Part shown: positions 6,391 to 28,178 of the stretch, one piece after another
How the letters are laid out: each line of letters opens with the position of its first letter
How positions within the stretch are numbered: position 1 is the first letter of the stretch
Origin: Quercus robur
Taxonomy: Eukaryota; Streptophyta; Magnoliopsida; Fagales; Fagaceae
NCBI RefSeq assembly: GCF_932294415.1
Contig: NC_065536.1
Span: 39,888,354-39,952,353 of the forward strand
Direction of reading: 5' to 3'
DNA length: 64,000 nucleotides
The notes under the pieces: model-generated
Told to the model about the DNA's origin: nothing
The model's database searches: none
The model's input: only the letters and a program-made list of their open reading frames with translations
Program-made: the position numbers and the translations under genes

Positions 6391-6563
6391 TGATAAAAAA
6401 TGAAACTATTAATCAAAGACTGCCTCACATATATACATATTATGTATATCAACGTAAAAAATCAGTTCTATCAACAAATAAGTGGCAAAGAAATTTACGA
6501 AAACAAGTATATGAAAAGAAGTAATGGTGTAACACCCCATAACTTTGATACCTATTTAATTAG

Positions 6564-6655
6564 GGATTTTTCAGAAAATAACTACAAAACCCAAACTATT
6601 TCATTAGTTAGGAAACGTTTGAAACAAATTTGGAATATAACAACTCGAGTTCAGA
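6564..6655 (+). repeat. MULE-1 left terminal inverted repeat
   Basis: Begins GGATTTTTCAGAAAATAAC and contains TTAGTTAGGAAACGTTTGAA. The same order of motifs appears in the complement of 28090-28178 and in both small hairpin elements at 26771 and 31286. Confidence 0.8.
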
Positions 6656-6945
6656 GGGGACGATTTCCTGGGTTTTTTATTTTACTATTGCGAGAAATCG
6701 AGTTGAAAGAACTCGACTTCTAAGCCTGGAAACCGAGTCCAAAGGACTCGGTTTCCATGCTTTAAAACCGAGTCCCTTGCACTCGGTTTTAAAGCATGGA
6801 AACCGAGTCCCTTGCACTCGGTTTCCAGGCTTAGAAGTCGAGTTCATTCAACTCGATTTCTACTCTTTGAAACCGAGTTTAACGAACTCGTTTTCCACGC
6901 TTAGGAACCGAGTCCTTTGGACTCGATTTCCTTTTATAAAACTGC
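6650..6945. repeat. Left subterminal array of palindromic modules
   Basis: Six or seven consecutive stem-loop modules of about 28-45 bp each pair an ACCGAGTCC or GTCGAGTTC arm with its complement around a 4-5 bp loop, for example GAGTCCAAAGGACTC near 6730 and GAGTCCCTTGCACTC near 6774. Larger symmetry also exists: the two GAGTCCCTTGCACTC modules lie on either side of a central TTTAAAGCATGGAAACC. Such arrays could fold into cruciforms or be transposase sites. A 156-codon open frame across this array is a by-product of the repeats. Confidence 0.8.
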
Positions 6946-6949
6946 ACCA

Positions 6950-7241
6950 TCAGTTCCATCAAACTAGCAGCACTCCCATCCAACAGCAGCACTCCCATCC
7001 CACAGCAGCTTTCACGTGGGCATCACAGTTCCCCCACAGCAGCTTCAGTCCCCAGCCCTCCACGTGTCTGTGGGTCCCAGCCCTCTTGCCGTGGGAATAA
7101 GTTCTCTCTGTATTGTGAATACATATTAGAAACTCAGTCTCTATATTCAGCTCTCTCTTGAACACTCTCTATATTCAGCTCTTTCAACTCAGTCTCTATA
7201 TTCAACTCACTCACAGAACACTCATCACACAACATTCTCAG
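6950..7241 (+). promoter_or_regulatory. Leader region of the MuDR transposase gene
   Basis: CT-rich sequence with repeated TCTATATTCAGCTC-like motifs (7139-7205) ends at a good donor, CTCAG|GTAATATTTT (7241/7242). An acceptor CTATAG|GTTGAC lies at 8824/8825, just before the ATG at 8832. I infer a 5' untranslated exon and a 1.6-kb leader intron driven from the left terminal region. No TATA box was fixed. Confidence 0.45.
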
Positions 7242-8430
7242 GTAATATTTTACAATATTGTGATTATTTTGCTAGATTTTTTTTAAAGAAAAATTTAGAA
7301 CATATTAGGAAAAGTTTTGTTTTTCTTATTTGTTAGTGTAAATATTGTGATCAATTTTTTTGTTAGTATATTGTGATTATTTGCTAGGTTTTTTTTAAAG
7401 AAAAATTTAGAACATATTAGGAAATGTTTTGTTTTTCTTATTTGTTAGTGTAAATAGTGTGATTAATTTATTTGTTAGTATATTGTGATTATTTGCTATT
7501 TTTTTTTTAAATTAATGTTATGAGACATTTATATAAGATCATAAATCTACTTAAGAAAAAATATCTATAATGAGTAGTAATTTAATGATTAATTGTTGGG
7601 AATATTTAGTAAATAATTGTGATTAAATTACAACATATTGGGGAATTTTTTTTTGTTAGTGTAAATATTTTGATTAAATTACAACATATTGGGGAATTTT
7701 TTTTTTTTTTTTTTTTTTGTTAGTGTGAATATTGTGATTAAATTATTTGCTAAGTTTTTTTTTAAGAAAGTTAATATTGTGATTATTGGGAATATTTAGT
7801 ACCAAATATTGTGATTATTATGTGAAAATTTGAGTACTCTAGATATGCAATTTTTTCCTTTTTATTTTTATTTTTTCATTTAAGAGAATATATAAAACTT
7901 TTTTGGCTAAAGGTTCGAAGCTCAAAATCTTATAAATCCAATTATTTTTTATTTTTTTTAAGGAAGTTGCAACAGTAAAATTGTAACATGAAATGGTCAT
8001 GACCATGACCTTGACCATGAATGAATGTGTAAGGATGGTGCAGCACGAGCACGTATAGTTTGTGAAAAATTTACAAATATTTGGTGTTGTTACAATTTGT
8101 AACATTCCAAGTTAGGAAAAAAGGAGCAGGCTTTAAAAATAGAAAGAGAGCAAACGCTGTCCATTTCCATAGCCCTTTAGGATTTTAGGGGATTAGATAT
8201 AGGTAAAAAGAATGGAGTCATTAGGGATTTTTTTAGAAAATAACTACAAATATTGTGATTATTGGGAATATTTAGTACCAAATATTGTGATTATTATGTT
8301 ATTACAACATATGGGAATATTTGTTTTGTTTGTTAGTGTAAATATTGTGATAATATGCTAAGTTAAAAAAAAAATAATATTGTGATTAATTATTGGGAAT
8401 ATTTAGTACTAAATATTGTGATCAATTGTT
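7242..8430. repeat. AT-rich degenerate tandem repeats in the transposase leader intron
   Basis: The motifs ATATTGTGATTATT and GGGAATATTTAGTACCAAA recur many times between 7250 and 8430. A direct repeat of about 130 bp (TTTTTTTAAAGAAAAATTTA..., near 7277 and 7391) is also seen. A further copy of the element's terminal motif (GGGATTTTTTTAGAAAATAA) occurs at about 8224. The rest up to 8830 is AT-rich with no other feature. Confidence 0.6.
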
Positions 8431-8831
8431 AGGAATATTTAGTACTTTTAGGTCTTTCTCATGGATATGAAATGGATTATGAGTTTGATACCTAAGATAG
8501 TAGTCTTTTTACCATAAATTATTTCAAGATATATTTGTTTAAGATTTGTAACAGAGATTTCAATGGATAACTGGTTGGTATATAATATTTTTGTTCATCA
8601 TAACTTATTTGAATGGGTTTTGAAAGTCATGCCCCTAGAATGATTTAGAATTTTTAAAGAATATGAAATTGGTAATGACTATTTTTGTAAGATTACTAAA
8701 GGTGAGTATATGCAAATTTGGTTGAGGTTAGTATTGTTGGCATTTCATACGCAAAGTTTTGTGATTGATGTTGATTGAGCGTTATAAATTTGTCACTAAC
8801 ATAATTGCACTTGATGATCTATAGGTTGACA

Positions 8832-11597
8832 ATGATCTATATAAATATATACTACGGTGGACCCCTTAACAATGCCAACCCTTATGATGGAGCCTCATTT
8901 CAAGGTCCGGGTATCCAGTGCTACTATATGATGATACGCCGTAAGCTAAAGACCCTGAATGAGCTGAAAGTAAAAATTATGGAAGAGTTGCAAGTGAACC
9001 TTGCTTTGCATGACATACATATTACTTCCCGTTCTCCATATGAAGTCCTCAATCAATGCATTAATTACAGATATATGGCGATAACAGAGGACAAACATGT
9101 GAAATTCATGTTTAGTAAGATGGACAAATGGAAACAAGCAGCAGATTTTGAGTTATACGTCACTTTGGAGCCTCGTGCAGAAGTCGGCGTAGAGGACGAA
9201 ATTGTACAAACAACTACATCTCTACAGTTTGCAGTCCTAGATGATCAATGCACCACATTGGGAGGCTATACACCCCCTTTTCAAGAGACACCAATAACAA
9301 TTGAGAGTGAACCTGGAAATAGATATGAAGATCAATTTTGTACACATCGAGGTGAATCCTCTACAGTTCCAGTAGTTGAAGATGAAGATGAAGACGAAAA
9401 CTGTTCTGGGGAAGATGGTGAGGATAGAGATGAGTATGAAGAGAGGATTGATGATGGTGACTTTGATAGGGGTCTTGATGACCATGAAATTACTCACATT
9501 CCTCATGTTGATGATATGGCTGAATGTGATGAAGATGATGAGGACGCTAATGCTAGAGTTCAGCATGTTACAAATACGACCCTCGTTTATGAACCTCCTG
9601 CCTCATCATTTTATGAAAATACTTGGGAAAATATGGTTGATCCTGAAGTTGTTCAGTAATCATTTGGTTCTTGGAATGCAGACATGAATTTTGCGAAAGG
9701 GTTGATTTTTGCTAATAAAGATGCGGTGAGACGTGCATTAACAATTTACGCCGCAAAGCATAACAGAAACTTTGTGACTAGTAGGTCGACCACAAGTAGA
9801 CTGTCTGTGAAATGCAGCGATGAATCATGCATGTGGTACGTTGGGGCAGTTGTGAAGCCTGAACTCGGACTATGGATGGTCACATCTTATAGGGGTCCTC
9901 ATAATTGTATGCCCCTTGCCACGGCCCTTGATGGTAGAATGATGGATTGTAATTTTCTAGCAGAAGAATTTGTTCCATTGTTGAAAGAGAAACACACGGC
10001 AACAATTTATCACCTTAGACATTTCATTAAAGGGAAGTATTATGGGCATATTCTTTCTTACTATAAGATATGGGATGCGAAACAACGAGGTATTGTAAAG
10101 ATATTTGGGGGTTGGGAAGAGTCTTACCAAAGGTTGAGAAAGTTATTGTTTGCATACTGGGATCAAGAACCTGGCACCCGTTTCTGGTTTCACACCATAC
10201 CCAGGGACGAGTTCGGTGATACAATATTGCGCTAAATATTTTGGGCTTTCGCTCCATGCATTGCAGGATTCAGACATTGTAAGCCAGTGATCAGTATTGA
10301 TGGGACCCATTTGTATGGTAAATATCGAGGGGTGTTGTTGATTGCAATGACCACCGATGCCAACAACAAGGTTTTGCCTCTTGCCTTTGCCGTTGTGGAC
10401 AAAGAGTCAGGGTCTAGTTGGGGGTGGTTTTTAGAACGCCTCAGGAATGCACTGGGGGATGTGATAGCAGATAAGGACATCTGTATAATTTCTGACCGAC
10501 ATAAGGGTATTCAAAGTGCAATTGCAAACTGGCCTAGACATGATGATGGACGACAACGAGTAGTTCACAGATATTGCCTTCGACATGTTGCTAGCAACTT
10601 CAACACGCATTTTCAGGACGCCACTTTAAAGTCATTAGCCTTGAAAGCGGGGTATGCTACTCAGGAATCTAAATTTGAGTTGTACATGCAACCTATCAAG
10701 GAAGCTGAGATCGAGGCCCTTAGGAAGAAACGGAGAACCGAGCGGCAGGAAAGTGAACCCGACTCATCCATCATGCCATACACATATCTAATGAACGAGG
10801 ATCTAGACAAGTGGACCCAACTACATGATGGTGGATACCGTTATGGGGCTATGACAACCAATGTCTCGGAGTGCTTCAATGGAGTACTCAAAGGTGCCCG
10901 TGGCCTACCCATTGCTGCAATGGTTGAATTCACTCATTGCAAACTTGTTGCGTATTTCCATGATCGACACAAAGAAATTACTCATGAGCTCTCAAAGGAC
11001 AAGGTATGGACTAAATATGCCTTAAAAATCTATGGACACAACCTACAAAAATCAATTTCACACCAAATAAATCCGTTTAATAATCTGAATGGTATATATC
11101 AAGTAATTACTTCATACAACATCTATAGCTCTGGAGGGGGACACCATAGTTATGAAGTAAATGTAAAGGCCAGAACATGTGGTTGTGGAAAGTGGCAAAT
11201 GAGAAAGATCCCTTGTTCACATGCAATTAAAGCTCTTCAGTACTTGGGGCAAGATGCGACTGCATATATTGACCCATGTTATAGTTTGGTGAACGCCATT
11301 CACACCTACTCACATGCATTTGTGGTGCCAAAGTCAGATTCATTGTGGAGGGATGTGGATGGTCCAAAGTGGGTGCCTGACCCAAAACTGTTGCGGGGCA
11401 AAGGTCGACCTGTGGCGTCTAGGATACGAAATGAGATGGATGGGGTCCGGCGAGAACCGGGAAGCCGGAGGCCAGATTCTGACTTGAGGGAGATTCAGCA
11501 AAAGCAGAGTTGTGGACTGTGTCATCAACATGGGCATAACCGTAGAAGATGTCCGCTTTCCCGTGGGGCTTCGACAAGCAGTAATAATCCAAACTAG
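8832..11597 (+). pseudogene. mudrA-like: MuDR-type (mudrA-like) transposase with two in-frame stops
   Basis: One continuous frame of about 921 codons, broken only by TAA at 9657-9659 (codon 276) and TAA at 10233-10235 (codon 468). Order of parts: an N-terminal region of about 100 residues, an acidic D/E-rich linker (about 185-250), the MuDR N-terminal DNA-binding domain (NFAKGLIFANKDAVRRAL, about 285 on), then the MULE DDE transposase domain. Catalytic residues are visible: Asp in SIDGTHLYGKY (about 490), Asp in IISDRHKG (about 555), the C-x-x-H of YCLRHV (about 582-585) and Glu in NVSECFNG (about 680). A SWIM zinc finger (TCGCGKWQMRKIPCSHAI) and a C-terminal CCHC-like knuckle (CGLCHQHGHNRRRCP) follow. 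The reading continues without a shift across both stops, so these are recent point nonsense changes. An intron at either stop is less likely, because homologous protein sequence runs straight through. The protein would cut and join element ends in the nucleus. Confidence 0.9.
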
Positions 11598-12628
11598 GTA
11601 AGTGATGCTTTTATATAAAATGCCATGATTGTATCAATTAGCCAAGTTGCATAGATTAGTACGTATGTTTTGGGTTTTGGTATCTAACAACAATATTTGA
11701 ATTTTTGCTAGGCATGCAAATACTCGAGTTTGGAATGGCATTGTAGATGTCAATTGGGGTTCTCTTTATTATGTATTTGAACTTACTACTGGGTTGTATC
11801 CACACAATTATTATTTTGTTCGTCACTGAATGAACTTGTAATCAAAGTATTTTATATCCAATGTACCTGTTTCTAGATTGTGATATCACTGAATGAACAT
11901 GTTATCTTATTGGCTTCAACCAATAACTCAATAATTTTTTACTAAAAAATAAGTCCAACAACTTGTTACACTTAAGTAAAGACCATATTTGAACAAAAAA
12001 TCCAATTTAAATGCACATATATCTATGTATTATCCGATACATGTGACTTATATTATTATTATTATTTTTTTTTTATGAATGATACATGTGATTTACAAAT
12101 CAAATACATATGATTTATATAATACACATGTATCATATGATTTATGAATATGGTTGATACGTTGACACTTTTTTCACTCAATCAATACATATTGTAGTTT
12201 TACCTAAAAAAATAACAAATAGGACAGTGAAGCTCAATTTCTATTTATTAGTTCAGTGTTTAATTAGGTCCTTATGGAATGAGTACATGCCTGCAACTCA
12301 TTGCTGTATACAAGAATAGAAAGTGGAAGGAAAGGGGCAAGAAGCCAAGAACTAAGAAGCAGCCAACACATTGATGCTTTACTTGAAGAAATATCAAAAT
12401 ACTACAATGTCCTTATTCCTCATGTTTCTCATTCTAAAACTTGATTAAAACTGTGTATGAAACTAAGAACAATACAGAGACCATTATAAATTCTACATGA
12501 TCTTTGATACAACAGAGGATTAGGCCTACACAAATCCTTGTAGTTGTATCTCTTGCATCAAAACATAACTAATATAACCAAAAAATCCATGCCAAAGACT
12601 CTCCAAGGAATCTTTTGTTATCATCCAA
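11598..12628. other. Spacer between transposase and captured gene fragments
   Basis: AT-rich DNA with no supported gene; presumably the transposase 3' untranslated region and a spacer. Short ATACATGTGATTTA-like motifs recur at 12040-12130. Confidence 0.4.
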
Positions 12629-15600
12629 CTAAGGTCGTCGAGGTCCTGGTCCAGATCTTTGGCGAAGGTTGTCGTAAGTCTTAGAAACCAGCAACAGTCG
12701 TGGATCATCTTCAGGTATTTCACGTTCCTGAACCCAGAACAAAAATGGACACAGTTACGAATATGCACATAATGGGAATCAGTTATGAATATGCACATAA
12801 TTCATATATGAAGAGATATCTAACTATATGAGGGCCAGCATGGCTAGACATAGTAGCAATTGCAGGCATTTGGATGCATCCAGAAGACCAAGGACTGGAA
12901 TTTGACAACTTAGGATATTGTTATTGACTGTAAAAATAGCTAGCTGCACTTTCTGCTATGAAGCATTACAACTTCTGGTTGTGTTGGGCTGGAAACAATC
13001 TAGGTCATTACTAACTTTTTGGATCTAAAAAAAAAATCCCTCATACATGACAATAAATGATTTCTATTCCCTCTTCTGGCTTAGTCTTCAATGCTCAAAC
13101 AATACTTTCAAGCCCAGCACTAGCAGTCTAGCACAATTAACTTAAATGTTGCTCCCCAAAAAAATACTCAAACAGTAGTTTTAGGCTCCTTTTGTTAAAG
13201 ATTTCAACTTGTTTTCAAAGTTTTCAAACAATATTTAACACCATAGATTTCTAAGTAACATCCAGAGTAATTTGCAGTCTAACAACTAAGTAACACCATT
13301 GTCGAAACAGATGTGCTAAGAAAATCACTCATGAGAATTTACTATTTCTTAAGCATTATCTGGGCAAGAAACTCACTTTTAAGCCCTTGTAATATGCTTC
13401 CACAGCAGGAGGTGAAGGAATAAAGTTTCCAGCTTGCATCAGATCCCATATATAGTTAGCAGTAGTATATCCACCAGTATGCAAGGATATATTATAATTT
13501 AGTTGGAAAATAGACAGTATAAACTAAAATATACAGGCTAGGAAGAATGATAAAGAATCATATAGAGCCAGGACAAATAACAAAATCTCTCCTTCTCCCT
13601 AGCAACCACAGGGATCTAATCAAGTAATTAAACAAGGTATTACGTACTTTTTCACCAGAAGCTAAAAGGAGGAGATCACTCCCCATTTTTGGGCTCAAGA
13701 AGAAGTCCCTGGAATTCATGTTTACCTGCATAAGAAAATGTAGAACCGCAGATAGGGTTAAAACAATCAAGACAATGAATCAGGAACTCAAGTAAGAAGC
13801 TACATAACAACCATACCAGCGTGTCTTGAGCAAGTTGCATTCCCTTGGGAGTATGCCCAACCATGGCTCCCTCTACAAGTGTCTACAACCACATAAATCA
13901 CAGTAATTTAATGTCTGTATAATACAATAATATCTTGATATGACTATACATTACATAAACATGAAATCCACTTTTAACCGGCACAAAGTAACCAAACGAT
14001 TGTCACTGACAAACATGAATAGAAACATCTTCGTTGTCCCCCCAAGGAGCTTTTTCCTTTTCAATAACAAACTGAATATCATTAAAATAGCACCCCCCAA
14101 AACAAAAGCACTATCCTAGTACACAGGGAAAATGAAAATCAGCAGGGCAGTTAGCTTACATGTAAGTTCACCTTCACATCGATAACCAAAAATTAATTTT
14201 CTTCCAGTTTGTTATAAGAGAAGCATACATAATGTTTTTACCAATTTAGCTTGACTCAAATGGACTGGCAATGCTCTAGCTTAACCAAATCAGACAAACA
14301 CATCTTCTATATGTATTGGCCACTTTAGGAGCATGACTTGTTGCAGTTTACAGATGCAGATACACACTCTTTTTTGATAATTATACCCAAAATTATTTTT
14401 CTTCTAGTTTTGTTATCAGTTTTGTTATCATAGAAGTGTAGCATATTAGATCCTCAATTTAAAAAAAACGAAGAAGAAGAAAGTGTAGCATATATGTTGG
14501 TCAATTAAAATAAACTCAAATGGATTAGAAACATCCTTACATAATCAAAACACACACACACACACACGCATCCCACTCCAGCTCAAATGGCACACAAACA
14601 AAAAATATGCATTTGCCAGTCAGGAGTATCAATTGTTGCATTTTACAAAATTTATCTAACGCACACAACAAGAGATTCGCAAATCATTAACATCAAAACG
14701 GATTGCAGATAAAAGTAGGCTTCTGCACCAAATGTTCCATGGCCAGGATGCCCATATTGAGTAGTGATCAGGAAGGTCATGTAGATACAGATTCTAAACC
14801 TTATATAAAATTAGTGAATCTGTGACAGCTGCATCTCTAAATGATTTATGTGCAAAGGCTTTTTCACGCCTTTTTTTTTTTTTTTTTGTTCCTTTTTAGG
14901 TCAGTGTTGCACAGAGAAGAACAGATCAACTAAACTAAGAGACAAAGCTATTCTCACTTAAAATGCAAGTATGAACCACAAGTGAAAAAGCACACATGCA
15001 CTAAGAATTGAACTTTTCAGTCATGATCTTAATATCAATGAATGCATCTGTACAAATAAACATATATCATGTATGTATACATGTATTTGCCACATCCATG
15101 GTAGTCCATAGCTCATTTAAGCAAGAAATAATTTGAAATTATTCATCAACAACTATTTACCTCATAACTTGCATCACAGTAAAGACATCAGGAGTGTTTC
15201 CATTATTCTTTAGCATCTCCAACAAAGTTTCCATCACCTACCATGGTCATAAAAAAAAAGCACCCATATAAAAGCAGAAAATTGCTTCATAGCATTCAAC
15301 AAAGCAGAAAATTGCTTCATAGCATTCAACAGAAAATTCTCTCAATTCTTAGATATTAAGCAACAGAAAAATAAATGAAAATTAAGCAATTAATGAGTTG
15401 AAGCTTCTCTTCTTTCAGACTTTTTTTGGATGCGTAAATGCTTCAGTTGTTTTTACTTTCAACTCTCTGCCTGATCTGCTTGATTTTTATACTTTCTTTG
15501 TTATTTAATTTTTTTTCAGTTTGCCTCTTAGCACGCTGCCTGTGTGCTTTGCATTCTTTGTAATTTCTTTTAGCTTTTTTCAATGAAATTTATTGCTTAT

Positions 15601-16796
15601 TAAAAAAAAAATCACTAAACCGAGCAACAATAGAGGAAAATTTATGTTATAAATAAGGACTTCTACATTAGGGCTTCAAAAAAACAATTTTTTCCTAGTC
15701 TTCTGTGTCTGTATATAATTATAGATACAAACTAACAAATGAAATAGGTGACAGAAGGTCATGAGAGCATATTGTTCAGACAAAAGTTAGGCTTGAGCTT
15801 GCTTATCCCAAAAAAGAGAGAGTAAGGCTTGAACTATTCATTTGCAGCCATGATGACAAAACCTTTCAAAATGAAGAGCTTTACAAGCGGCATTGCCCTT
15901 CTTCACTCACATGATATTGCAGGATCGGGCTAAGACATCATACTGATGGGGATCTACTAATCAAATGCAGCTTCTCTTGGGAAACATAGCCCAATGTTTA
16001 TTCTTTCTTATTAATTTCGGATTTCTTGGACCCAGAATATGAACTATTTTAAACAGAACTTGCCTTAATAAGTTCCTTTTGTTTTTACAGATGAGAGAAT
16101 AATTGTGAAAAGGGGAAAAAAAGCTCAAATATACTAGAGTATCAAGAATGTCAAAATTGCAACACATTTTCAAAGCGCACATAAACAGATATGAACCATC
16201 ATTTTTGATAGTTATTTATGTACTTGCACATATACACATACATACATGTGTATCCAGTGGGGATTTACTATCATTCCCACTTTCATGTTAAGGATAGCAG
16301 CCTTCCCGTTTTTGTTTAGCCAAATATTCCCCACTTCCTCCATATAAGGTGTGGGCATTTTTTTCCACAACTATCAAAACCACCCTCACAACTCACACTA
16401 CCCCACCCAAGTCACACCATGTCTAATCAGGTCATACCATGTCACAAGTGTTAACTAGTTAAATATCAGACAATTAATGATGATAGACAGGAGCATTTCA
16501 CACTGAACACAGATGGAGTGCATACACGAGGAGTTTATGATTGACATAAAAACTGTACCAATCACCATTGGCAAAAGGCCAACAAGAATGCAAAGATACA
16601 GTAAGAGCAGAAGGTTCACTTACAGTCAACTCAACCTCCAGCACAGCTAGGTCTTGGAGATTTGAAGAGTCCTCAACTCGTGATGGATCAATATACTTTG
16701 TAGATGTTAAATTCTCTGAAGTCTCATCATGTTCACTCCTCTCTATGACAGGCTCTTGATCTTTCTCAAAATGTTCATGTACAGCATGATAACACT
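12629..16796 (-). pseudogene. Captured fragment of a PPR-like gene (3' exons)
   Basis: Minus-strand exons joined by eye: 16624-16796 (CYHAVHEHFEKDQEPV..., ending EVELT), 15161-15237 (VMETLLEMLKNNGNTPDVFT), 13817-13883 (EGAMVGHTPKGMQLAQDTL), 13648-13725 (MNSRDFFLSPKMGSDLLL), about 13377-13478 (GGYTTANYIWDLMQAG), and 12629-12727 (EREIPEDDPRLLLVSKTYDN... to a TAG at 12629-12631). Several junctions are in phase (EVELT|VMETLL, GLK|EREIPE). The text resembles the C-terminal half of a plant mitochondrial PPR-type protein; the family name is a moderate guess. Damage: the acceptor of the fifth exon reads CTTGCAT instead of CTTGCAG; the junction 15161/13883 is out of phase, so an exon may be missing; no 5' part is present. 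A perfect 30-bp tandem duplication lies in an intron at 15271-15330. It sits inside MULE-1 downstream of the kinesin fragment on the same strand. Confidence 0.65.
15271..15330. repeat. Perfect 30-bp tandem duplication
   Basis: Two identical 30-bp units (15271-15300 and 15301-15330), each starting AAAGCAGAAAATTGCTTCAT, lie in an intron of the PPR-like fragment. No decay between them suggests a young duplication. Confidence 0.9.
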
Positions 16797-17416
16797 CTAA
16801 AACATGAAAAATGTTTAATGAGATGCAAAATAATGAATAGAGACCAATGTTCTCCACACACCTTGTACCTCAACAACATAAAATCATAAGAAAGCAATAA
16901 AGTGCTTGACATTGGTACAAATTTTCTGCTTCAGCATTGAGGTTTCTAAAATCTAAAGTCTGAAGATTTAGAAATATTAGCTTTTTAGAAGTACGTTTAA
17001 ATGAGGAGACAGAATTATTGGTACGTTTCTGATTCCCTGTGTAGCTTATAAAATAAACATTTAGGTTTCTTTTAATATATCGAAACTTAATTGGATTCTG
17101 TTTCAGTTCCCTTGAACTTAAAACCCCAGTCATTTCAAAAGGAATATAAGCATAACAACTCTGAACACGGTAACTCCATACATGCACTGAAAGCACATTC
17201 TAAAACTCCACACCATTTGCAACAAAAATATTAATAAAGATGGGCTTCAACTGCAAGTCAAGCATTGGGCATAAACTGAATGCGTATCCAGTGGCTTGTG
17301 GCAAACTACAATGCAATCAATGAAACACAATATTTCCAAGGTACCGGTACTTGTAGATTTGATGGTAAGAATGTAACTCAATAAATTTTCTCAGTAAAAA
17401 TAGAAAATGAAGAACC

Positions 17417-20400
17417 TGAAGCAATTCCTTCTCACGAGAAGCCTTCCATTGTCGAAATTGTTCTGACTCTTGTTTTATCTTATGCTGCAACTGAACCTAG
17501 AATATGAATGTGGAACAAGAAGGATGGATCCAAAAATGTGAGACACCGTAATGTTGGATTTGTGAATATAAACTAGAATAAGCACTAAAATGAGAACCAA
17601 CTTTCTGAGCCTTTATATACTGTATTTCAGCTTGCAGGCGCTTTGCTGCTTCATCACTTTTTTGTTTTTTCTTCAAGAGTTGGACCTGGCTTTCTTGTTT
17701 CTTCTTAAGATCTAAAATCTGAAATTCATTACAGAAAGTTAAGACATTAATCAAGAATCCTAGTTTACGGAAACAGAACAATATTAACTTATGAAAGTCT
17801 TGAAAAATAATCAAGAATTTACTAAAAAGAATGACATTTATATTTGTCATTTTGTAACCTGTGCTTCAAGCCCTTTTAGTTTTTGAGCGTGATTATCTTG
17901 CATTTTGTGTGTGTGCCCATCAGAATTGGCAGCAAGATTCTCAACTTCTGCCAACAAACGATCCCTTTCTTGCTGTATTTATGCAATTGAACATCAGCCA
18001 TCAAAGTAAAAGCATATTGATTCTCAAAAAAAAAAAAAAAGTAAAAGCATATTAGGCAGTGATAATTTTAGAATTATCTTTTCAACCTGCACAATTCTTT
18101 TTTCTTCCTCAAGTTCTGTGATTTTCTTCCCAAAGTGCTGCTTGAGTGCTTCAGTATCAATGCCACCAAAAAGTTTCATCTCACACTGCACAAAAGTAAG
18201 CATAAATTAAAGATTAATAAAGGTGTTTGAAAATACTAACAAGCCACCAATTTGATGCCGTGCTTATATCCTAGAATATAGTGCAGTCAATACATATGGA
18301 ATCTACATATATGCCCATGGCTGCCAAATTAAACTGCTATGTGATGAAATCATTAGACCAACTAACTCCTGCCAAAAAAAAGGGGTTAAAGTGGCTTCTT
18401 CAAATAAGGTAAAAAAAAAAAAATGAAACCTTAACTAAAATTGCATTCCCAAGCCCATTTTTCTTTTTCCTTTTTGGATATCTCAATAAAAAGGGGAACA
18501 TTTGTGCCCCAAATAAACAACTGAGAATTATTTGAGTGGCGAAGAAGTAATCATTAAATTGGTTACAATTACAATCTTAAATCTTTTTTTCTGGAAGGAG
18601 CAAGACAGCCAGAGAGATGCAATGCAGAATGCATCTAATACCACAAGATGCTGCCTCCATATGACATTAGTTTAGTATTTCCTCTTTGTCACCACTTACA
18701 CTTCATTTAAGAGTTTATAACGGAATGGAATGTATTTAAGTAATGGAAAGAAAAGTAAAAGAAATGAATGAAATGGAATTAAGTAATCGTGGTTGGATGT
18801 TTTAAATAAAGGAACAGAAAGGAATTGATGAAATGTATATATACTCAAACTTCATTAGGTCCAACAACAGATATATTATTTAAATTGTTAAGAATTCCCT
18901 TTCAAACCTCTAATTTATATACGTATATTAATATGCATGAAACAAGGCAAATAATGAAACCTCTTTCTGCTCCAAACGTTTGTTCAATTCATTTAACTCT
19001 TTGTCCATTGTATCTTGCAGAAGTGCATGCTCCCACTCTTTAGTTACTTCATCAAATTCCCTGGGACTTTCACCTGTATAAATGAGAGTAAAGTGCCAAA
19101 CTTTGAAGAATTGGACTAGCCAACCAAAACATGATTTATGTAACAGAAGAAATCTCAGATAGATTGGCCCCACCAACAGATGGTGCCATTCCACAACCTC
19201 ACCCACTCAAAGACTCTATGTATTATTGTATTAAACTGTGTAGAATAAAGTGCAAGGGTTTTCCTTTCATATAGGCAGACAATGTGTGCTTTACAAGTAA
19301 TATAAGTGCAGTAAAAGAAACCTAGAACAGTCGGCTCTTATATTCTAACATATATAATAGGCATAGTTTAAAATAAAATGACCACAATTCACTGTAATCC
19401 ATCTTATATCTGCAGGTGCAGTGCATTGAAGAAAATTCAAGCTCATCAACGTCATTTTTCTAAAATGTCCCAAACTATGCAGCAAAATGAGTGAAAGACC
19501 TTTTCTAGTTTTACAATTTCATAAGAGGGAAGCTAGTTACTAATAAATTAAATGGTCATCCATTGTATATCTAAGTATGCAGTGCATTGAAGACTATTTA
19601 AGCCTGTAACCAAACATTCTTCTAAATGGTTCAAACTATACAACAACATGAGTGGATCACCTGATATGGTTTCAACAATCTGATAATCAGATGAGTCTAT
19701 GCTCTGAAAGCCCCTCTTAAGTCCATCACTTTTTGTAAAACCGAAGTGGCCTTCCTGATAAATAAACACCCCAAGTGATATAAGTATTAATGCAACAATT
19801 TTACTCAACTACGTAACTGAAGGAATAGAATAAATATAAATACACCCATATTGTATTGACACTAAGAAAAACCACAGACATTCCACTCCATATAAGTATG
19901 GAAAGGAAAACTAACCTTGGATAAAATAAGAAAAAGCAAAGAAGAGGATAACGAATTAGAGTTTCTAATAACATACTTGATCATCTATTACATCATGCTG
20001 TATGACACCACATCTACTGCGGTATTCATGAAGTTCTCGACAAAGATCCACATTGGTAGCCTCAAGCCAAGCAATCCGGTCCTTGAGAACCTATATAACC
20101 ACACAAAAAAAGAAGACATTTTGCCACCAAGACTATTCAATATATCTTCGTGAATATATAGTGCACTAACTGCTAAAATCAAACAACATTTGTATTCTTT
20201 ATAAAACAAGTACCTGCACTTCATCTGATGGTGCTCCTCCCCCACGAGCACCAAGCTCTGCCTGTAAGTTCATTAGCTACTGCCGCATCTTTTGCATCTC
20301 ATTGGATATTAAATCTCTATTAACCTGCAGGGGAAAAAGAGGATTTAATTAATACAACAAACTTACAACAGGCCCTAATACACCAAAAAGGCGGAATGCA

Positions 20401-22204
20401 TGGAACTTGAAACCAGAAAAAGCTTCGTTATCTGCATCTAGCAGGAAGTGAGGGTATCAAGTACAAAATGAGTCATAACAAAATAATGCAACAAACTTAC
20501 AACAGGCTTATTTTGAATATTGCGGGCACGATTCGCATATTTGAGTGTGTTAAGACTTTCCTCAGCATTGATGTCAGCAGGACTGACGCAAGCTGGAAGA
20601 AGAATCACAATTAAAACAAATTAGAGAAGAATGAAAATATTTCCAATTTCAATAAAAGGAGCAATTCAGTTCAAAAGATCTAAAGTCCAACACCTCCCCA
20701 CTTCCACACACATGATACAACTTCCAAAAAGACTCAAAAACATTAAGTGAAGAACACCTAAAAAGAAAGAAGGAAAAGACAAATGGGGGAGGGGAGCTCC
20801 ACCCTGTTTCTGTGTCTTCTAGAGAGAATGAGAACATATCACATTTGAGAAAGGATGTTCTTAACAAGCAAGATTGAGCTACCAAAACAAAAGGTTGAAA
20901 ATGAATAACACCTTGTTCAAAAGGAATTAACCAAAGAAAGTAAATACTTTTTCTGTCAGAATATTGCTTCCATTGATTAAAATGAAAACTAGGAGTAAGC
21001 AAAAAATCCAAAGTAAGGAGAAGAAAACTCAGTTCTATTTAATTGTTTTGCAAGGCAAATCTTGAATATATCTTATCTCTTTGTGTGTGTGTGTGTGTAA
21101 CTATTTCTAGTATAATTGTAATCCCTGGACCAAAGTTCTTGAACAATTAAGCAATCACTTGGAGGTTACCTATCATGACAGTCTTGCTGTTTCCACCAAG
21201 TGAATCCTGCCAACATGCATAAAAGAACCTCAATCAGAAAACTATCATAGAAGAAGAAAAAAAGTAAAAACCAAGCAAAAACTGAAACATTGTTCTTAAT
21301 ACTATATAAATCCCAATAGAATAAAATAGTCATAATGCTATTTATTTGTAAGAACAACAAATACACTTATTTGTGAATCCTAGATATTAGGGTTAAAAGC
21401 AATATCTTTAAAATCACTATCTACTGATGTCCTTAACAAGCTATCTCAAAACTCAGCAAATCCCAGCCTTGATAAGGTGATAAGTATTAAAACCTAACTT
21501 AACTATATCAGGAAAGTATTGGTGAATCACTACTAAAAACAGATTAAGAATTTATCAAGCCTAGTGGTCAACAGAAACCAGGAATCTGTCTCTACCTAAT
21601 TCTAACTTAAGTTTTACAGTGTTGCATTTAACATATGCAGAAAATTGTTATATTTTCCTTGGTTGAAAAAACATTTCAATGAGAAAGATAGAGGTTGATA
21701 TAGACCACCAGAAATTCAGATCATTTTTCCATCTCAACACCATCATTTGGAACTTATGAGTTAACTGATAGTTCTATACAAATTTATATACCAGACATAA
21801 CATTAATCCAACCTGCAACAGTCGAGTTAGTTTGCTGTCTCGGTAAGGGACATGCACACCCTCTTTCCGCTTTTTCTCATCCCCTAATGCACTAATGACA
21901 TTACCAAGTGCAAGAAGTCCCTTATTTATGTGTATACCTGTTCACAGAAATAAAACAGAGAAATTTTATTTCATTATGATTATAAATAAAAGACAATAGG
22001 AATATATCAATAAGCAGTTTTACTAACCTTCTTTCAAACGAAGACCATCAGAACCTGTTCTTTTAGCGTGTTCAGATCCAGCAAGATCTACCAGATGGAG
22101 CTTTGCACAAAAATATTCTTCACCCATATCTTCCTCCGGGGAGTCACAGCCAGGAACATCTGAATGGATTTTGCGCATCTGCTCCAATGTGATTGTGTGG
22201 TGCA
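17417..22204 (-). pseudogene. Captured KIN-4 (FRA1-type) kinesin fragment
   Basis: Twelve minus-strand exons with GT-AG borders match the middle of plant KIN-4 kinesins. First exon 22027 to about 22204 has switch II (LHLVDLAGSEHAKRTGSDG); 21813-21937 reads [20 protein letters not shown] and [13 protein letters not shown]; about 21170-21208 DSLGGNSKTVMI; about 20489-20592 [20 protein letters not shown]; about 20217-20328 neck region; then coiled-coil exons near 19979-20091, 19662-19755, 18960-19073, 18087-18186, 17860-17969, 17606-17719 and 17417-17497 (EQFRQWKASREKELLQ). Phases agree throughout. The front half of the motor, with the P-loop, and the C-terminal tail after KELLQ are absent. A TAG stop interrupts the neck exon (20277-20279; CAG to TAG after KMRQ). 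It therefore cannot make a motor protein. The fragment is fused upstream to a PMT methyltransferase exon and lies inside MULE-1, so it is a transduplicated fragment rather than the host locus. Confidence 0.85.
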
Positions 22205-22221
22205 ACGGCGCTACTGGACAT

Positions 22222-22292
22222 TTTCAAGGGATAGCAGTCCGGCTGCATGCACCAAGTCATAAGTTCTAGGATACGTTGGAAAGGCTTCACAC
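22222..22292 (-). pseudogene. Captured PMT-type methyltransferase exon fragment
   Basis: After an acceptor TTTTCCTTTCAG the minus strand reads CEAFPTYPRTYDLVHAAGLL then SLE. This is the well-known stretch of plant PMT (QUASIMODO/DUF248-type) putative S-adenosylmethionine-dependent methyltransferases of the Golgi. It runs straight into kinesin sequence at about 22200, through roughly 25 bases that belong clearly to neither. A possible upstream exon at 22386-22437 (GLGLVLHHKALG) was not identified. The junction shows that two unrelated host genes were joined inside the element. Confidence 0.7.
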
Positions 22293-22874
22293 CTGAAAGG
22301 AAAATGGAATTATTATATATACAAGATCAAAGCATAAATTATTTAATACAACATCAAGCTATAACATGTAATATGACTTACTTCCCAAGAGCTTTATGGT
22401 GCAGAACAAGTCCCAAACCAGTACCATCCATCCCTACATACATTCATACCAACAAAGTTTCAACATCCAACAATTTTAAATATAAAAAATAAAAAAAACT
22501 GACAACAATTTGCCTAATGTTTTAACCCACCAAAAAACACATTAAACATCAAAGAACAAAATCACTTAAAGAAAACCAAGAAACTTATCCACTGAAATCT
22601 AGCATCAACACGTATCTCGTAAACACAAAGCACAAAGCAAATTCAAAAGTAGAGAGTTGGATAAACTTTCCAACCAGGCATTAGTATTTCAATGTAAAAT
22701 TTACAAAAATCAAAGACTTTGAAATATAATTAAAAAGAAAAGGATTTTTAAGATAAACTCACATCAAATAATCAGGAATGTTTTGAAAGCATTAAAAGAA
22801 TTAAATAAATAAAAAAAAAGTGATTTCAGAGAGCGAGAGAGAGAGAGAGAGAGAACCTCTATGGGATGCTAATC
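22293..22874. other. Spacer between captured fragments and the PMD gene
   Basis: AT-rich DNA with no certain gene. A pure GA microsatellite lies at about 22832-22856, directly beyond the 3' end of the PMD gene. Confidence 0.4.
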
Positions 22875-25800
22875 CTAATGCATTTTACGCTTATGCTGTC
22901 TCGTATAGTGTCTGGTATGTGGGGGAGGGGGTACTGCATCTCCTTCGTGAGGCTCCTCACGTTGCTGCAAAAATGGAGTTACAACCAAACAATGAATTAC
23001 ATGAATTCCAAAACCAACCATAACAGTAGTTACTCAATATTCATTACATTAAATGACTTGTCATACCGTGGGGCCAGTGTTGTGTCCTGCTTTGTGACCA
23101 CCTGTCCCACAAGGAGGTGCTTTTATTGTACGTTTAGGTCGACCTGGTAGGGGTGACTGTAACCCAACAACCTGCTCATTCTCAACATGCACAGCTGGCT
23201 GTTTTGCTTGACTCCCAACAACTGAAGATCCTACAACTGCGGGGGAGGAGGGTGTAGCAAATGAAATGTGAGTGCCCCTACTCATGGGATCTATATGCAA
23301 TCTAGGAGTGGGAATGAATGACATGGAGTGACTATGGGGCGGTACATGGTCTATATGACCAATGCTGTACGATGGGGATTGCGTGTGCATGACAGGAGGG
23401 GTTTGACTGAAATCAGGGCCGAGATCAAAGGATGGTGGAGTAAATGAAAGATGAGCAGGATCAAAAAATGTATGTGAGGTGTGTGAAGGGATCTCGGGGT
23501 GAAAAGATGCATGAGCAGTGGGTAGAGAGATCTCTAGGTCAGAAACTGCATGAGCAGTATGTGGAGGGATCTCTGGGGAAGGAGATGCATGTGGAGGTGG
23601 AGGGAACTCTAGGGGAGGAGATGCACGTGGGGGTGGAGGGAGATCTGCCCTACTGACAACCTGATGGGATGCAGCACGCTGACCATGGCTATGGCTGGCA
23701 CGAGTTGAGCTCGTGCTTGGTCGTCCAGTATCTTCTGGCGCTTCTGGATTTGCCCCATCGATATCTTCCAACGGAAGTTGAGCAGTTATACGGTGAAGGC
23801 GTTCCACTGTCTTAAGTATAGTTGAAATATGCTTGTACTCAAGACTGCCTACTGTATAAAGTTTCAACAACTTCTTGTGACTGGCAACCTGAAAGTAAAT
23901 AAATACAATTAGTACATCATACTGAAGTTCTTGATACGCAACAAAAATTGAAAAGAAAGGTCGAAGCAATTACCATAATAATAAGTGAAGCTGAAGTGTG
24001 GTCGACGAACCTCCATGTCACCCTATCGTACCAATCGAAGTATGGATGAGCAGGCGACATATCACCCTCTAGTCGTGCTCCAGGACATAGAGATTGTGCT
24101 CGAGTATTCCATACTCGGATATGGCCATAATGTCTGTCCCTCCAATTCACCTCCATCTTCCCCCTCAGGTCTATGGCATGAAGGGCTTCGTCAGTATCAA
24201 CATATGGGGGGGGGGGGGGGCGGGGTTCTTGTACCATCCCGAACTGACGAACAACACGGTCCGGTGTATGTTTCTCTACTAGCCAGAAACATACAAGCGG
24301 TACCCTCGCCGTCCATACATCCCTTCCGGCGACACAAAACGTAGGCAGGTGGGCTAATTCAGCTTCATATGGTTGCCACACCACCTGAAATAGTCAAATC
24401 AAAGGACAACACATTATGCAATGTTCCATATCTATGAGCTCTTTTACATTTATAAATACAATAGTCATAAACAATAGAATAAACACAATTTTGGTACCTG
24501 CTTTGGATGCATACAATCTAAAAGCTGACGGTACCGGACCAGACAGATTTCAGCGGGGCTATTCAAGGTGCTCACAACCCACACAGTCCTACAATTGCGA
24601 AAGAGGGAGTCAATACTTGGAATTGAGAATATGAAGTAATCAACAACAATAAATGATGGGCAATCGTAAATTTAACAGTATATACCACTAAGATTATACT
24701 AATAAATGATTATCTAAACATATGATTAGTGGTGGAGTTAGAAATTAATAAGACTTATATTATACATCAATCATAACATATGACCTCCGTGGTTGTCAAA
24801 CGATATATAAAAAACATAAATAAAAATCCTATTAATGAGTCAAAATTTGAAGAATATCAAGGTTAAAATTTTATTTTCTATGTCTAACAATGTGTTTAAA
24901 ATTATGGATCTATTTCCAATAGAGAGAATCGGTCAAGGAAGAGACTTACTTAATAGACAATGGAGAAGGTGCAAATGGTGGGCCATATGCACCATCTGGT
25001 GGGAGGTCCATCCTTGGGCACAAAAAAGGGAATCTGACCCATGCCCAATACTGAACTAGCAACAAGGCCCCACCAATCTGACTAGCACCTCTGTCGGTTG
25101 CCCTGCATAACTCTCTGTACAGCCATGCAAGGCAAGCACTCCCCCAACTGTACTGAGGTGGATTCCGAAGGTCCCTCAGCATCTGCAACCACATCGTATG
25201 CACCCTATCACCAGACTTGTCGGCGAAAATTGTGTCTGCCAGGAGTGCTAGGATATAGCACCGTGCATATTGATGCACAACCACCTCTGTTGCATCATCG
25301 GGCAACCCTTCGTCAATTTTTTCTAGTAGCTTCTTTATTTGGATCCTTTGTCCTTTAAGCGTGGTGTCATTAGTAGCAATTCCAAGCAGACTCTGACATT
25401 CATCTTTTCATGTCAAGTCAGTTGTTCCAACAATTGCCTCACCATCGATTGGAATTCCGAAAAGAACCTCCACATCTTGTAATGTGATCGTTGTCTCACC
25501 ATGTGGCAGGTGGAAGGTGTGGGTTTCAGGCCGCCATCGCTCAACGAAGGCCGTGATCAGGTTATGATCAATCTCTCTACCTGGGGTCCTATACAGCCCC
25601 TCTAATCCAACTCTCTTCACAATGTCGACGATACGATCATCCACCACTATCCGGCGTCGTTTTCGGAACTCGTCATTACGAACGCGGCATTTCAGTGGCC
25701 CTGGATCTGCACATGATAGAACTATGGTGATGAGATGCAATATGCCATAACCTTTGTATATATGATTGTAGTTATTGATCCCAAAAAACAAAAATAAAGC

Positions 25801-25980
25801 AGTTATGAAGGGACCTTAAAATATCAACCCCAAAAAGAAAAAAAAAAAAAAACCAAATCGAATCGTTACCTTGCCTTCCCAAACAGCGCACGCTCGATGT
25901 GTTTTTATAAACCTCAACACCGAATCGTCCATGGGCCCAGGACCAAACTCATCAGGGATCTGAGCAGGAACAGCAGCCAT
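22875..25980 (-). pseudogene. Plant mobile domain (PMD) protein gene of MULE-1, one nonsense codon
   Basis: Six exons on the minus strand. Exon 1 starts at ATG 25978-25980 (MAAVPAQIPDEFGPGPMDD) and ends near 25870. Exon 2, about 25709 to 24950, carries the PMD core: [38 protein letters not shown], and further on YSWGSACLAWLYRELCRA. Exon 3 is about 24497-24590, exon 4 about 23972-24387 (RVVRQFGMVQEP...), exon 5 about 23063-23890 with a long Pro/Ser/His-rich tail ending GRPKRTIKAPPCGTGGHKAG, and a last short exon ends at TAG 22875-22877. A TGA at 25408-25410 follows GTTDLT, where relatives have Trp, so it is a TGG to TGA change. A C12 run in the coding strand (24208-24219) encodes consecutive prolines and could slip. 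PMD ('aminotransferase-like, mobile domain') proteins include Arabidopsis MAIN/MAIL1 and many transposon-borne copies; their biochemical role is unclear. It reads inward from the right end, opposite to the transposase. Confidence 0.85.
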
Positions 25981-26761
25981 ACTGCACGAAGTTTAGGGAG
26001 TCAAGAGTAATATAAGCACATGTTAAATTGGTAAGGATCCCAATTTCTTGCACAAACGATAAGTATTCAAGAGCTTCAAAAACGATAATATACTGCAGCT
26101 AAAGTATATAAGTTTTACCCATTATACACACACACACACATATACACTCTTCTAACCATGCATTTTATCATGAAATATGTTATATTCATATAAACACTCA
26201 AAATCCATGAGCATTGACTTTAAAGCATCATAATTTTATGTAACCTCATCATTCCGTGAAAACTGTGTGTCCAATACCTATTAACAAAAATTGATATATC
26301 AATCAACCCCAAAAAGGGACCAGTTACTATTCCAAAATACCCAAAAGTTACACTTCAGTAGTTTCAATCCAAACTAAGCAACTTGCATGCAAATAAGCGC
26401 TAACCCTCACAATTTGATTACATTTGGTCGTCAGAAACTTTATTTTGCTCTACATTTAAAGAGTAAACTCAGCACTACAAGGAATATTCATTTTGCACAT
26501 ATATCCTAAGGAAAAAAGTTTCTTCTCAAATGGTTAAACACTTAAAATGTTAGTGAAAAGACACATCTAATTATCTATAATTACAAATTTGGAAGGAACT
26601 GTATCCTTTTCGGGACAAATTCCCTGTTCCAACACCAACACAATGTGTTACATGGGGGAACTTTTATAGTATCAGAATGCAGGGACGCATCTAAATGGAA
26701 TTTCAGACATATTCCATTTAGTAAGCATTTCAGACGTGTTCAACTCAGAATGTGTTGTGTT
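25981..26761. other. PMD leader or intron region, no gene seen
   Basis: AT-rich sequence upstream of the PMD start codon. It is probably 5' untranslated or leader-intron sequence leading back to the right end of MULE-1. A CA/TA microsatellite lies near 26127-26145. Confidence 0.4.
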
Positions 26762-26770
26762 GACAAGTTC

Positions 26771-27076
26771 GGATTTTTAAAAAAAATAACTATAAATCCG
26801 AAACAATTTTATTAGTTGAGCAACTTTTCAAACTATTTGCATTTCTAACAAATCGAGTCTAATAGACTCGATTTTGCCCTTTGAAAAATACACTTAGAAA
26901 TCGAGTGTGAGACACTCGATTTTCAAACTCGAGTGTCTCACACTCGATTTCCAAGCGTATTTTCAAAGGGCAAAATTGAGTCTATTAGACTCGATTTGTT
27001 AGAAATGCAAATAGTTTGGAAAGTTGCCCAACTAATAAAATAGTTTGAAAGATTTAGTTATTTTTTAAAAAAATCC
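26771..27076. mobile_element. 306-bp hairpin element of the MULE-1 family, nested inside MULE-1
   Basis: The element is almost entirely one long inverted repeat with arms of about 150 bp: left GGATTTTTAAAAAAAATAAC..., right the complement ending TTAAAAAAATCC. GACAAGTTC flanks it on both sides (26762-26770 and 27077-27085), a perfect 9-bp target duplication as expected for Mutator transposition. Inside are palindromes GAGTCTAATAGACTC and GAGTGTGAGACACTC. The outer 60 bp share motif order with the MULE-1 termini (ATAACTATAAATCCGAAAC, TTAGTTGAGCAACTTTTCAA). Confidence 0.95.
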
Positions 27077-27299
27077 GACAAGTTCCCTACACTACATATC
27101 ATGAAATGTACCCAAACATAGATGCATGTACCCACAGCAAACATAACAACAAAAGAAAAAAGAAATATTATACAAAGGATTACCAAAGACAATATTATAC
27201 AAAGGATTACTAAGCCAAAATGGATTTAATCACAAAATCAACAAACGATGATCGTTGTCAAAATACAACAATATTTAAAGAAAAAAGAAAGAGTTTACT

Positions 27300-27470
27300 T
27301 GTGACGGCGAGAGGCAGCGACAGCGACGGTGACGGGAGCGAGAAGCAGCGACGGCGACGGGAGGGAGAAGCAGCGACGGTGACGGTGACGGGAGGGAGAA
27401 GCAGCGACGGCGATGGGAGGGAGAAGCAGCGACGGCGACGGGAGCAGTGGACGGCGCCGGCGACGGAATG
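27300..27470. repeat. GC-rich GACGGCGACGGGAG minisatellite
   Basis: Units built on AGCAGCGACGGCGACGGGAG and variants repeat five or six times. The block is the most GC-rich stretch in an AT-rich region and lies upstream of the PMD gene, near its probable transcription start. An open frame across it (27220-27471) is low-complexity Arg/Asp/Gly and not a supported protein. Confidence 0.75.
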
Positions 27471-27719
27471 AGAGTGTCAGAGCTCGACTGAGATTTGAAG
27501 TTTTTGGATTTTTTTAGAAAATAAGTTTGAAAGTTTTTTGTGTTTGGTTTTTTTGTGAGAGGGACTGAGAGTGGCGACGGGAGCAGTGCACGGCGCCGGC
27601 GACGGAATGAGAGTGTCAGAGAGAGAGCTCGACTGAGATTTGAAGTTTTTGGATTTTTTTAGAAAATAAGTTTGAAAGTTTTTTGTGTTTGGTTTTTTTG
27701 TGAGAGGGACTGAGAGTCA
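27442..27719. repeat. 139-bp tandem duplication with internal copies of the terminal motif
   Basis: GAGCAGTG(G/C)ACGGCGCCGG starts two near-identical units at 27442 and 27581. Each unit contains GGATTTTTTTAGAAAATAAG (near 27506 and 27651), which matches the outer 19-20 bases of the MULE-1 terminal repeat. It lies at the PMD promoter side. Confidence 0.8.
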
Positions 27720-27789
27720 GAGAGGGAATGAGAGAGTGCTGTGTAAGTTTGAACTTTGTGTGTTTTGTGTGCTGATGATGACTTACACG

Positions 27790-28095
27790 TGTTACGCATA
27801 AATCGAGTTTAGTGAACTCGTTTTGTAAGAGTAAAAAACCAGTTTAATGAACTCGTTTTCCAGTGTTGCAAAACGAGTTCATTAAACTCGATTTATGCGT
27901 GGAAAAACTAAGTTCAATGAACTCGTTTTGCAAGAATAGAAACCGAGTCCATTGAACTCGTTTTTTACTCTTACAAAACGACTTCATTGAACTCAATTTC
28001 TGGCATATTGGGCCCACCTCAAGTACTGGCAAAAAAGCAAAATCGAGTAAAAATTACTCGATTTCATAACACAAAAATCGTCCACTTTAGACTCG
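27790..28095. repeat. Right subterminal array of palindromic modules
   Basis: Repeated stem-loop modules such as ATCGAGTTTAGTGAACTCG, AACGAGTTCATTAAACTCG and ATCGAGTAAAAATTACTCG lie within a larger near-palindrome that starts and ends with ACGCATAAAT-type sequence (27796-27900). This mirrors the left array at 6650-6945 in design. Confidence 0.8.
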
Positions 28096-28178
28096 AATTG
28101 CTAGAATCCAAAATAGTTTAAAACGTTTCCTAACTAATGATATTGTTTGGGTTTTGTTGTTATTTTCTAAAAAAATCC
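28090..28178 (-). repeat. MULE-1 right terminal inverted repeat
   Basis: Read on the minus strand from 28178 it begins GGATTTTTTTAGAAAATAAC and includes TCATTAGTTAGGAAACGTTT, matching the left terminal repeat with scattered differences. Confidence 0.8.

Follow-up and report, generated by a model that had tools for sequence, protein, structure and literature searches.

A window of 64 kb of the Quercus robur genome (contig NC_065536.1, forward strand, positions 39,888,354 to 39,952,353) holds at 6563-28178 a giant Mutator-like element (MULE) of oaks, 21,616 bp long, in which a transposase gene faces a gene for a plant mobile domain (PMD) protein. The two-gene element was active recently, and the copy in this window is broken. 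The PMD gene is no cargo but is maintained as the element's second gene, as shown by its linkage to the transposase, a phylogeny in common with it and selection. Furthermore, predicted models of the PMD core match the fold of VANC21, a protein of the Arabidopsis MULE VANDAL21 that is described as binding specific DNA sequences and countering silencing (PMC5735166), and arrays of CGAGT palindromes lie inside both ends. We give a probability of around 0.6 to the reading that the PMD product would be a DNA-binding anti-silencing protein acting at these arrays.

Structure of the element

An earlier note on this DNA had proposed a single element of around 21.6 kb with matching ends and a repeated target site, and both were confirmed. 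The terminal inverted repeats (TIRs) pair 6553-6666 with 28075-28188, that is, 114 nt including the target-site duplication (TSD), or around 104 bp without it, with 83% complementarity. Their end-to-end alignment scored 133, against a maximum of 76 at 1000 random places of the window. The 10-bp TSD, TATTTAATTA, is perfect at 6553-6562 and 28179-28188, and therefore the limits of the element are 6563-28178. These TIRs and a TSD within 8-11 bp place the element among the Mutator-like elements (MuDR superfamily). The parts that concern both genes and the ends are the following:

6553..6562, target-site duplication, left copy TATTTAATTA
6563..6666, + strand, left terminal inverted repeat (self-alignment, random-place control)
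6694..6931, left subterminal array, seven CGAGT(n7)ACTCG palindromes
8814..11597, + strand, MuDR-type transposase, broken (Pfam domains, intact-copy comparison)
22878..22964, - strand, PMD last exon
23067..23888, - strand, PMD exon 5, proline-rich, low end approximate
23974..24384, - strand, PMD exon 4
24498..24588, - strand, PMD exon 3, small
24950..25707, - strand, PMD exon 2, with a premature TGA at 25410-25408 in the window copy
25870..25980, - strand, PMD first exon with ATG
26769..27078, inner inverted repeat, three further CGAGT palindromes
27797..28061, right subterminal array, four CGAGT(n7)ACTCG palindromes
28075..28178, - strand, right terminal inverted repeat (self-alignment, random-place control)
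28179..28188, target-site duplication, right copy

A MuDR-type transposase reading inward from the left (+) and a PMD gene reading inward from the right (-) had also been claimed, and Pfam domains were found in both. The transposase exceeds the Pfam cut-offs for the three domains of the MuDR superfamily, namely the Mut DNA-binding domain DBD_Tnp_Mut, MULE and SWIM (PF03108, PF10551, PF04434). It is interrupted by a TAA at 9657 and another at 10233, and 910 of its 931 frame positions are identical to those of an intact copy.

The PMD gene comprises six exons (25980-22878, 760 codons) and carries only the one premature stop. Its exons match PF10536 with E-values of 2e-24 to 2e-15, and the window exons and the proteins P0034 and P0033 are over the Pfam cut-off, so that they belong to the PMD family; all the 58 PMD member proteins match this profile at E up to 1. 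The tail encoded by exon 5 is disordered in the predicted model of the sister protein P0034. As a separate observation, oak records name the PMD genes of the element (P0034, P0042 and others) "serine/threonine-protein phosphatase 7 long form homolog", while Pfam finds only PMD in P0034; this label is likely a misleading annotation of transposon genes. In the PMD tails of P0034, P0046, P0048, P0054, P0097 and P0104 we also noticed by eye a recurring short motif near the end, CGTG followed by H- and K-containing residues. The leader regions of both genes hold repeats as well, at 7268-7491 (112 bp twice, 96%) and 27452-27717 (121 bp twice, 90%).

Sister copies and linkage of both genes

Genome searches scored only the top-ranking candidates (40 with a DNA query, 78-150 with a protein or family), and the counts below refer to the places so listed. 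The earlier note had called for a search of the same genome for copies with the same ends, and we found seven further complete copies, with lengths of 16.5 to 26.4 kb. Counting the copy in the window too, the TSD of 9 or 10 bp is perfect in seven of eight copies, and in the eighth it matches at 8 of 9 positions. The stretches shared among copies are mostly 94-100% identical, internal deletions being the main difference. All seven other full copies have an open transposase frame of 940-942 codons, and in five of them the PMD frame (exon 2 to the end of exon 5) is open over 686-691 codons; one of the other two has a stop and one is without the 3' part. Thus transposase and PMD do co-occur in copies with intact frames, a point that the earlier note had raised as a question, and the eight copies stem from separate and recent transpositions of an element with two genes. 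The earlier picture of the element has to be corrected at three points: the window copy is broken, its intergenic stretch is not empty (see below), and near-identical copies with intact frames lie elsewhere in the genome.

Regarding the ends, which we paired by eye from lists of end matches, 15 pairs lie more than 10 kb apart, and 12 of them enclose both genes. One has a transposase match only (C2:74248242) and two have a PMD match only (C2:82670558, C35:10038290). The outcomes that would have spoken for a mere passenger, copies with these ends consistently lacking PMD or PMD units with unrelated ends, were not what we found. Another 12 end pairs, separated by around 0.8-1.7 kb, leave no room for either gene.

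For the linkage count we listed 140 distinct transposase places and 175 distinct PMD places. The transposases were labelled by identity to the query alone: sub1 is the subfamily of the window, sub2 lies at 67-71%, and the sub3 protein is 63-65% identical to that of sub1. The nearest PMD within 30 kb was downstream and facing at 100 of the 140 transposase places, otherwise placed at 3 and absent at 37. By subfamily, a facing PMD was present at 25/36 (sub1), 47/56 (sub2) and 28/48 (sub3) places, while the frequency with which a random point has a PMD place within 30 kb is 0.013. As a control, of 150 places matching the Pfam MULE domain only 2 lie 30 kb or less from any of 217 PMD places, and this rejects the PMD as a chance neighbour. 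One of these two, C40:14402471, is by eye a FAR1/FHY3-like protein, and for this reason its PMD neighbour was taken as chance.

The small third PMD exon was seen by eye at the same place in sub1, in one sub2 example and in sub3; in a second sub2 example none was seen within the 700 bases inspected. TSDs of the sub2 and sub3 examples were not found.

Some single places deserve mention. The chromosome of the window copy carries two sub2 transposase-PMD pairs no further than around 180 kb from it, at C3:39712922-39733726 and C3:39823782-39842909. In the former the right TIR adjoins PMD exon 2, and so the first PMD exon may be lost. A sub3 element of around 12 kb (C4, about 69104884-69117069; L033 with L083 and L084) has the end of its transposase around 0.5 kb from PMD exon 4; its PMD tail exons were not located there and may be missing, and its transposase frame has one stop.

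Common phylogeny, selection and relatives

In 24 transposase-PMD pairs, hand-chosen to span the identity range, the protein distances of both genes correlate with r 0.974 (permutation p 0.0001), so that the phylogenies are linked. The correlation also holds within the subfamilies: r is 0.736 in sub1 (10 pairs, p 0.0009), 0.846 in sub2 (9 pairs, p 0.0015) and 0.947 in sub3 (5 pairs, p 0.033). Both trees concur on the three subfamilies, although not on their order nor on every inner branch.

Between subfamilies, the ratio of nonsynonymous to synonymous differences (pN/pS) was 0.32-0.35 in the main PMD exon versus 0.47-0.53 in the transposase, and the intervals did not overlap in four of five pairs and overlapped slightly in one. 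With the Jukes-Cantor correction, dN/dS of sub1 versus the others was 0.13-0.21 in the main PMD exon, where synonymous changes are near saturation, and 0.34-0.40 in the transposase. Exon 4 of PMD gave 0.17-0.35 in three pairs, a weaker signal of selection than that of exon 2. Judged by these substitution patterns, the PMD gene is under purifying selection.

In a tree of 39 PMD sequences, the multi-copy oak PMDs and their Fagaceae relatives form one clade with support 100. Outside it stand two intronless PMD genes and three oak genes of MAIN/MAIL-type appearance; we take these five to be host genes, a naming made by eye. A recent capture of the PMD is rejected by this tree and by the co-phylogeny. 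Relatives of both proteins occur in other Quercus and in Castanea. Lithocarpus litseifolius has a transposase (SO802_015460, 75% identical) and a PMD (SO802_015458, 78%) two locus tags apart on contigs of equal length, and a second pair, SO802_017659 and SO802_017657, placed likewise; to judge from these tags, the genes would be adjacent.

Other multi-copy oak PMD groups, with open frames of around 538 and 622 (L037, L038; C4:76248090, C40:14415465, C3:19386370 and similar places), fall in a sister clade of the element PMDs. The Euphorbia peplus PMD protein P0128 has, by eye, an N-terminus like that of MULE transposases, while Pfam reports only PMD; it is possibly a transposase-PMD fusion in a eudicot.

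Palindrome arrays at the ends

The palindromes of the left array are spaced by exactly 35 bp, from 6699 to 6909, and are followed at 6932 by TTTTATAAA, TATA-like by eye. This end of the left array precedes the transposase gene, and the right array precedes the PMD gene. In the window copy, CGAGT half-sites reach 22.5 per kb in the terminal 600 bp of each end, versus 0.93 inside and 0.92 in the flanks. Two copies have 11-16 half-sites per end, versus at most 5 in 500 dinucleotide shuffles, and one example each of sub2 and sub3 has related repeats at its ends. Two short copies keep arrays at both ends: L007 (one of the 12 short end pairs, 1032 bp, perfect 10-bp TSD) with 22 half-sites and L003 (941 bp, for which no TSD was found) with 20. 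The arrays could be bound by the transposase, the PMD protein or both. VANC proteins have their target motifs arrayed in non-coding parts of their own element, and the oak arrays are candidate targets of PMD.

Function of the PMD protein and rival explanations

When predicted PMD models were compared with solved structures (Foldseek), the PMD core was found to have the fold of VANC21. On this basis we propose that the transposase would move the element, whereas the PMD protein would bind the CGAGT arrays just within the two ends, close to the promoter of each gene, and remove or block silent chromatin there. Transposase and PMD would then be expressed. Pieces of host genes are captured between the two genes. 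The suggestion of the earlier note that PMD helps transposition or counters silencing gains support, and for the latter role the fold match supports it indirectly.

Several points weigh against this anti-silencing reading. The TM-scores were modest (by target length 0.44 and 0.49, by query length 0.24 and 0.41), the identity was 8-11%, and the two predicted models are not independent because their alignments are largely common. The sequence does not assign the PMD proteins to VANC: DUF1985 (PF09331) gives 18 bits with the window exon and 13.3 bits with P0034, versus a cut-off of 35.1, and it matches 17 of 58 PMD proteins weakly (E up to 1), while DUF7745 matches 13 of the 58 equally weakly. 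A PMD profile searched against PDB gave 12 weak matches, those aligned lying in low-complexity tails, and none was VANC; a PDB sequence search with one PMD protein gave no match, a viral fold library no significant one and Rfam none. Furthermore, a common fold, here a predicted one, does not prove a common function, and MAIN and MAIL1, which are also PMD proteins, are described as acting in silencing (PMC5418596). The linkage is also incomplete, with those 37 transposase places lacking a listed PMD within 30 kb and 62 of 175 PMD places lacking any listed transposase within 60 kb. Finally, the persistence of the arrays in short non-autonomous copies fits a transposase binding site equally well.

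That last point leads to another explanation, in which PMD helps the transposase in transposition or integration at the ends and the arrays are part of the transposition complex. The linked phylogeny agrees with it, as does the same facing layout in maize mudrA and mudrB (PMC3440606). We nevertheless hold it to be unlikely, since VANC21, to which PMD is structurally related, is described as countering silencing (PMC5735166), and the copy at C2:74248242, with both ends and a transposase match but no PMD match, moved without PMD in cis. Rather more doubtful is the reading of PMD as a decoy for the silencing complex MAIN/MAIL1/PP7L of the host, in which it would act by mimicry and not by binding the DNA of the element. 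MAIN and MAIL1 do share the PMD domain, and a counter-silencing role of transposon-encoded PMDs has already been proposed (PMC8616336; PMC5418596). However, the PMDs of the element group in a separate clade that excludes the five sampled PMD genes of host type, and their fold matches a DNA-bound protein. The idea of a captured passenger, like the kinesin piece described below, is largely refuted and we give it hardly any weight: the element does capture host DNA and the 62 PMD places without a transposase would suit it, but PMD faces the transposase in 100 of the 103 transposase places with a PMD within 30 kb, the phylogenies are linked, selection is purifying and the exon structure is common, whereas the kinesin piece has only one other place among the listed matches.

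Captured host DNA between the genes

Two further features lie between the genes of the window copy:

16282..16785, - strand, segment common to other copies (99%), with an open frame
16783..22197, - strand, captured host DNA, a 5.4-kb part of a kinesin gene with its introns, 99% identical to C6:12682580-12687998

The second segment, which carries a KIF21A-like piece, matches over that length only C6:12682580-12687998 among the listed places, with sharp ends, and the C6 locus continues beyond it with a kinesin motor exon (PF00225, L043:1480-1752). The match is long, uninterrupted and includes introns, which points to DNA as the source of the capture. A glutamate synthase piece (PF04898) adjoins PMD in the 26-kb sister copy, and three further stretches match places outside the listed copies at 94-99%, which are possible donors. 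The Quercus lobata protein record P0033 joins PMD and the glutamate synthase piece. Therefore, this MULE family both has a transposase of its own and transduplicates host genes. In addition, 13000-16155 matches C2:69388428-69392841 at 95-99% in two pieces, either a donor or an element remnant.

Significance

PMD is common to transposon proteins and the silencing factors MAIN and MAIL1, and a review calls these proteins enigmatic (PMC8616336). A fold in common with a DNA-bound anti-silencing protein suggests a direct and testable answer on the molecular role of PMD, namely that it reads DNA; if true, a single protein family would connect transposon-encoded counter-silencing with host silencing. 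For such work the oak elements provide intact genes in nearly identical copies and a defined array as candidate target. We see even chances for a broader proposal: PMD and VANC would form a single ancient superfamily of chromatin regulators that are carried by transposons and bind DNA sequence-specifically. Oak PMD-MULEs would use it with CGAGT arrays as a second, independently elaborated anti-silencing system, and MAIN/MAIL1 would be domesticated members reading DNA motifs with the same fold.

PMDs in MULEs are known: first with a rice MULE, then as PMD-C fused to the transposase in grasses and Amborella, with speculation on anti-silencing (PMC5418596), and eudicots are said to hold mainly genic PMD-C (PMC7156037). 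Meeting reports mention unpublished VANC structures (PMC8756742, PMC12859917). In the open-licence PMC literature we found neither a PMD-VANC link or facing transposase-PMD pairs in oaks nor the paper behind structure 9lnj, which may make that link.

Comparison with known systems

Maize MuDR measures around 5 kb, whereas the eight complete two-gene oak copies that we read span 16.5-26.4 kb. Both have TIRs (with a TSD of 9-10 bp in the oak element) and a transposase gene with a second gene transcribed towards it (PMC3440606). The second gene of the oak element is a PMD, and mudrB is described as having an unknown function (PMC3440606). The "mudrB position" of the earlier note stands as an arrangement of facing genes and only as that.

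The MULE-PMD-C elements that Ikeda et al. (2017, PMC5418596) report from grasses and Amborella also have a PMD inside a MULE. There it is described as fused to the transposase, and in the oak, a eudicot, it is a separate facing gene of six exons. Like the Pack-MULEs, the oak family carries host gene fragments with introns (kinesin, and glutamate synthase in a sister copy), but it does not appear to be non-autonomous, given the open transposase frames of its sister copies. The KIU/ULP1-carrying MULEs of Arabidopsis, grapevine, melon and rice likewise keep a recurrent extra gene, there a ULP1 protease and not a PMD (PMC13317346, PMC2528002).

VANDAL21 is also a MULE with a further gene, whose product VANC21 is described as binding short motifs arrayed in non-coding parts (PMC5735166), and the predicted models of the oak PMD core share the fold of VANC21, at only 8-11% identity. 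Furthermore, the oak element has long TIRs, whereas the KIU-carrying VANDAL group is described as non-TIR (PMC13317346).

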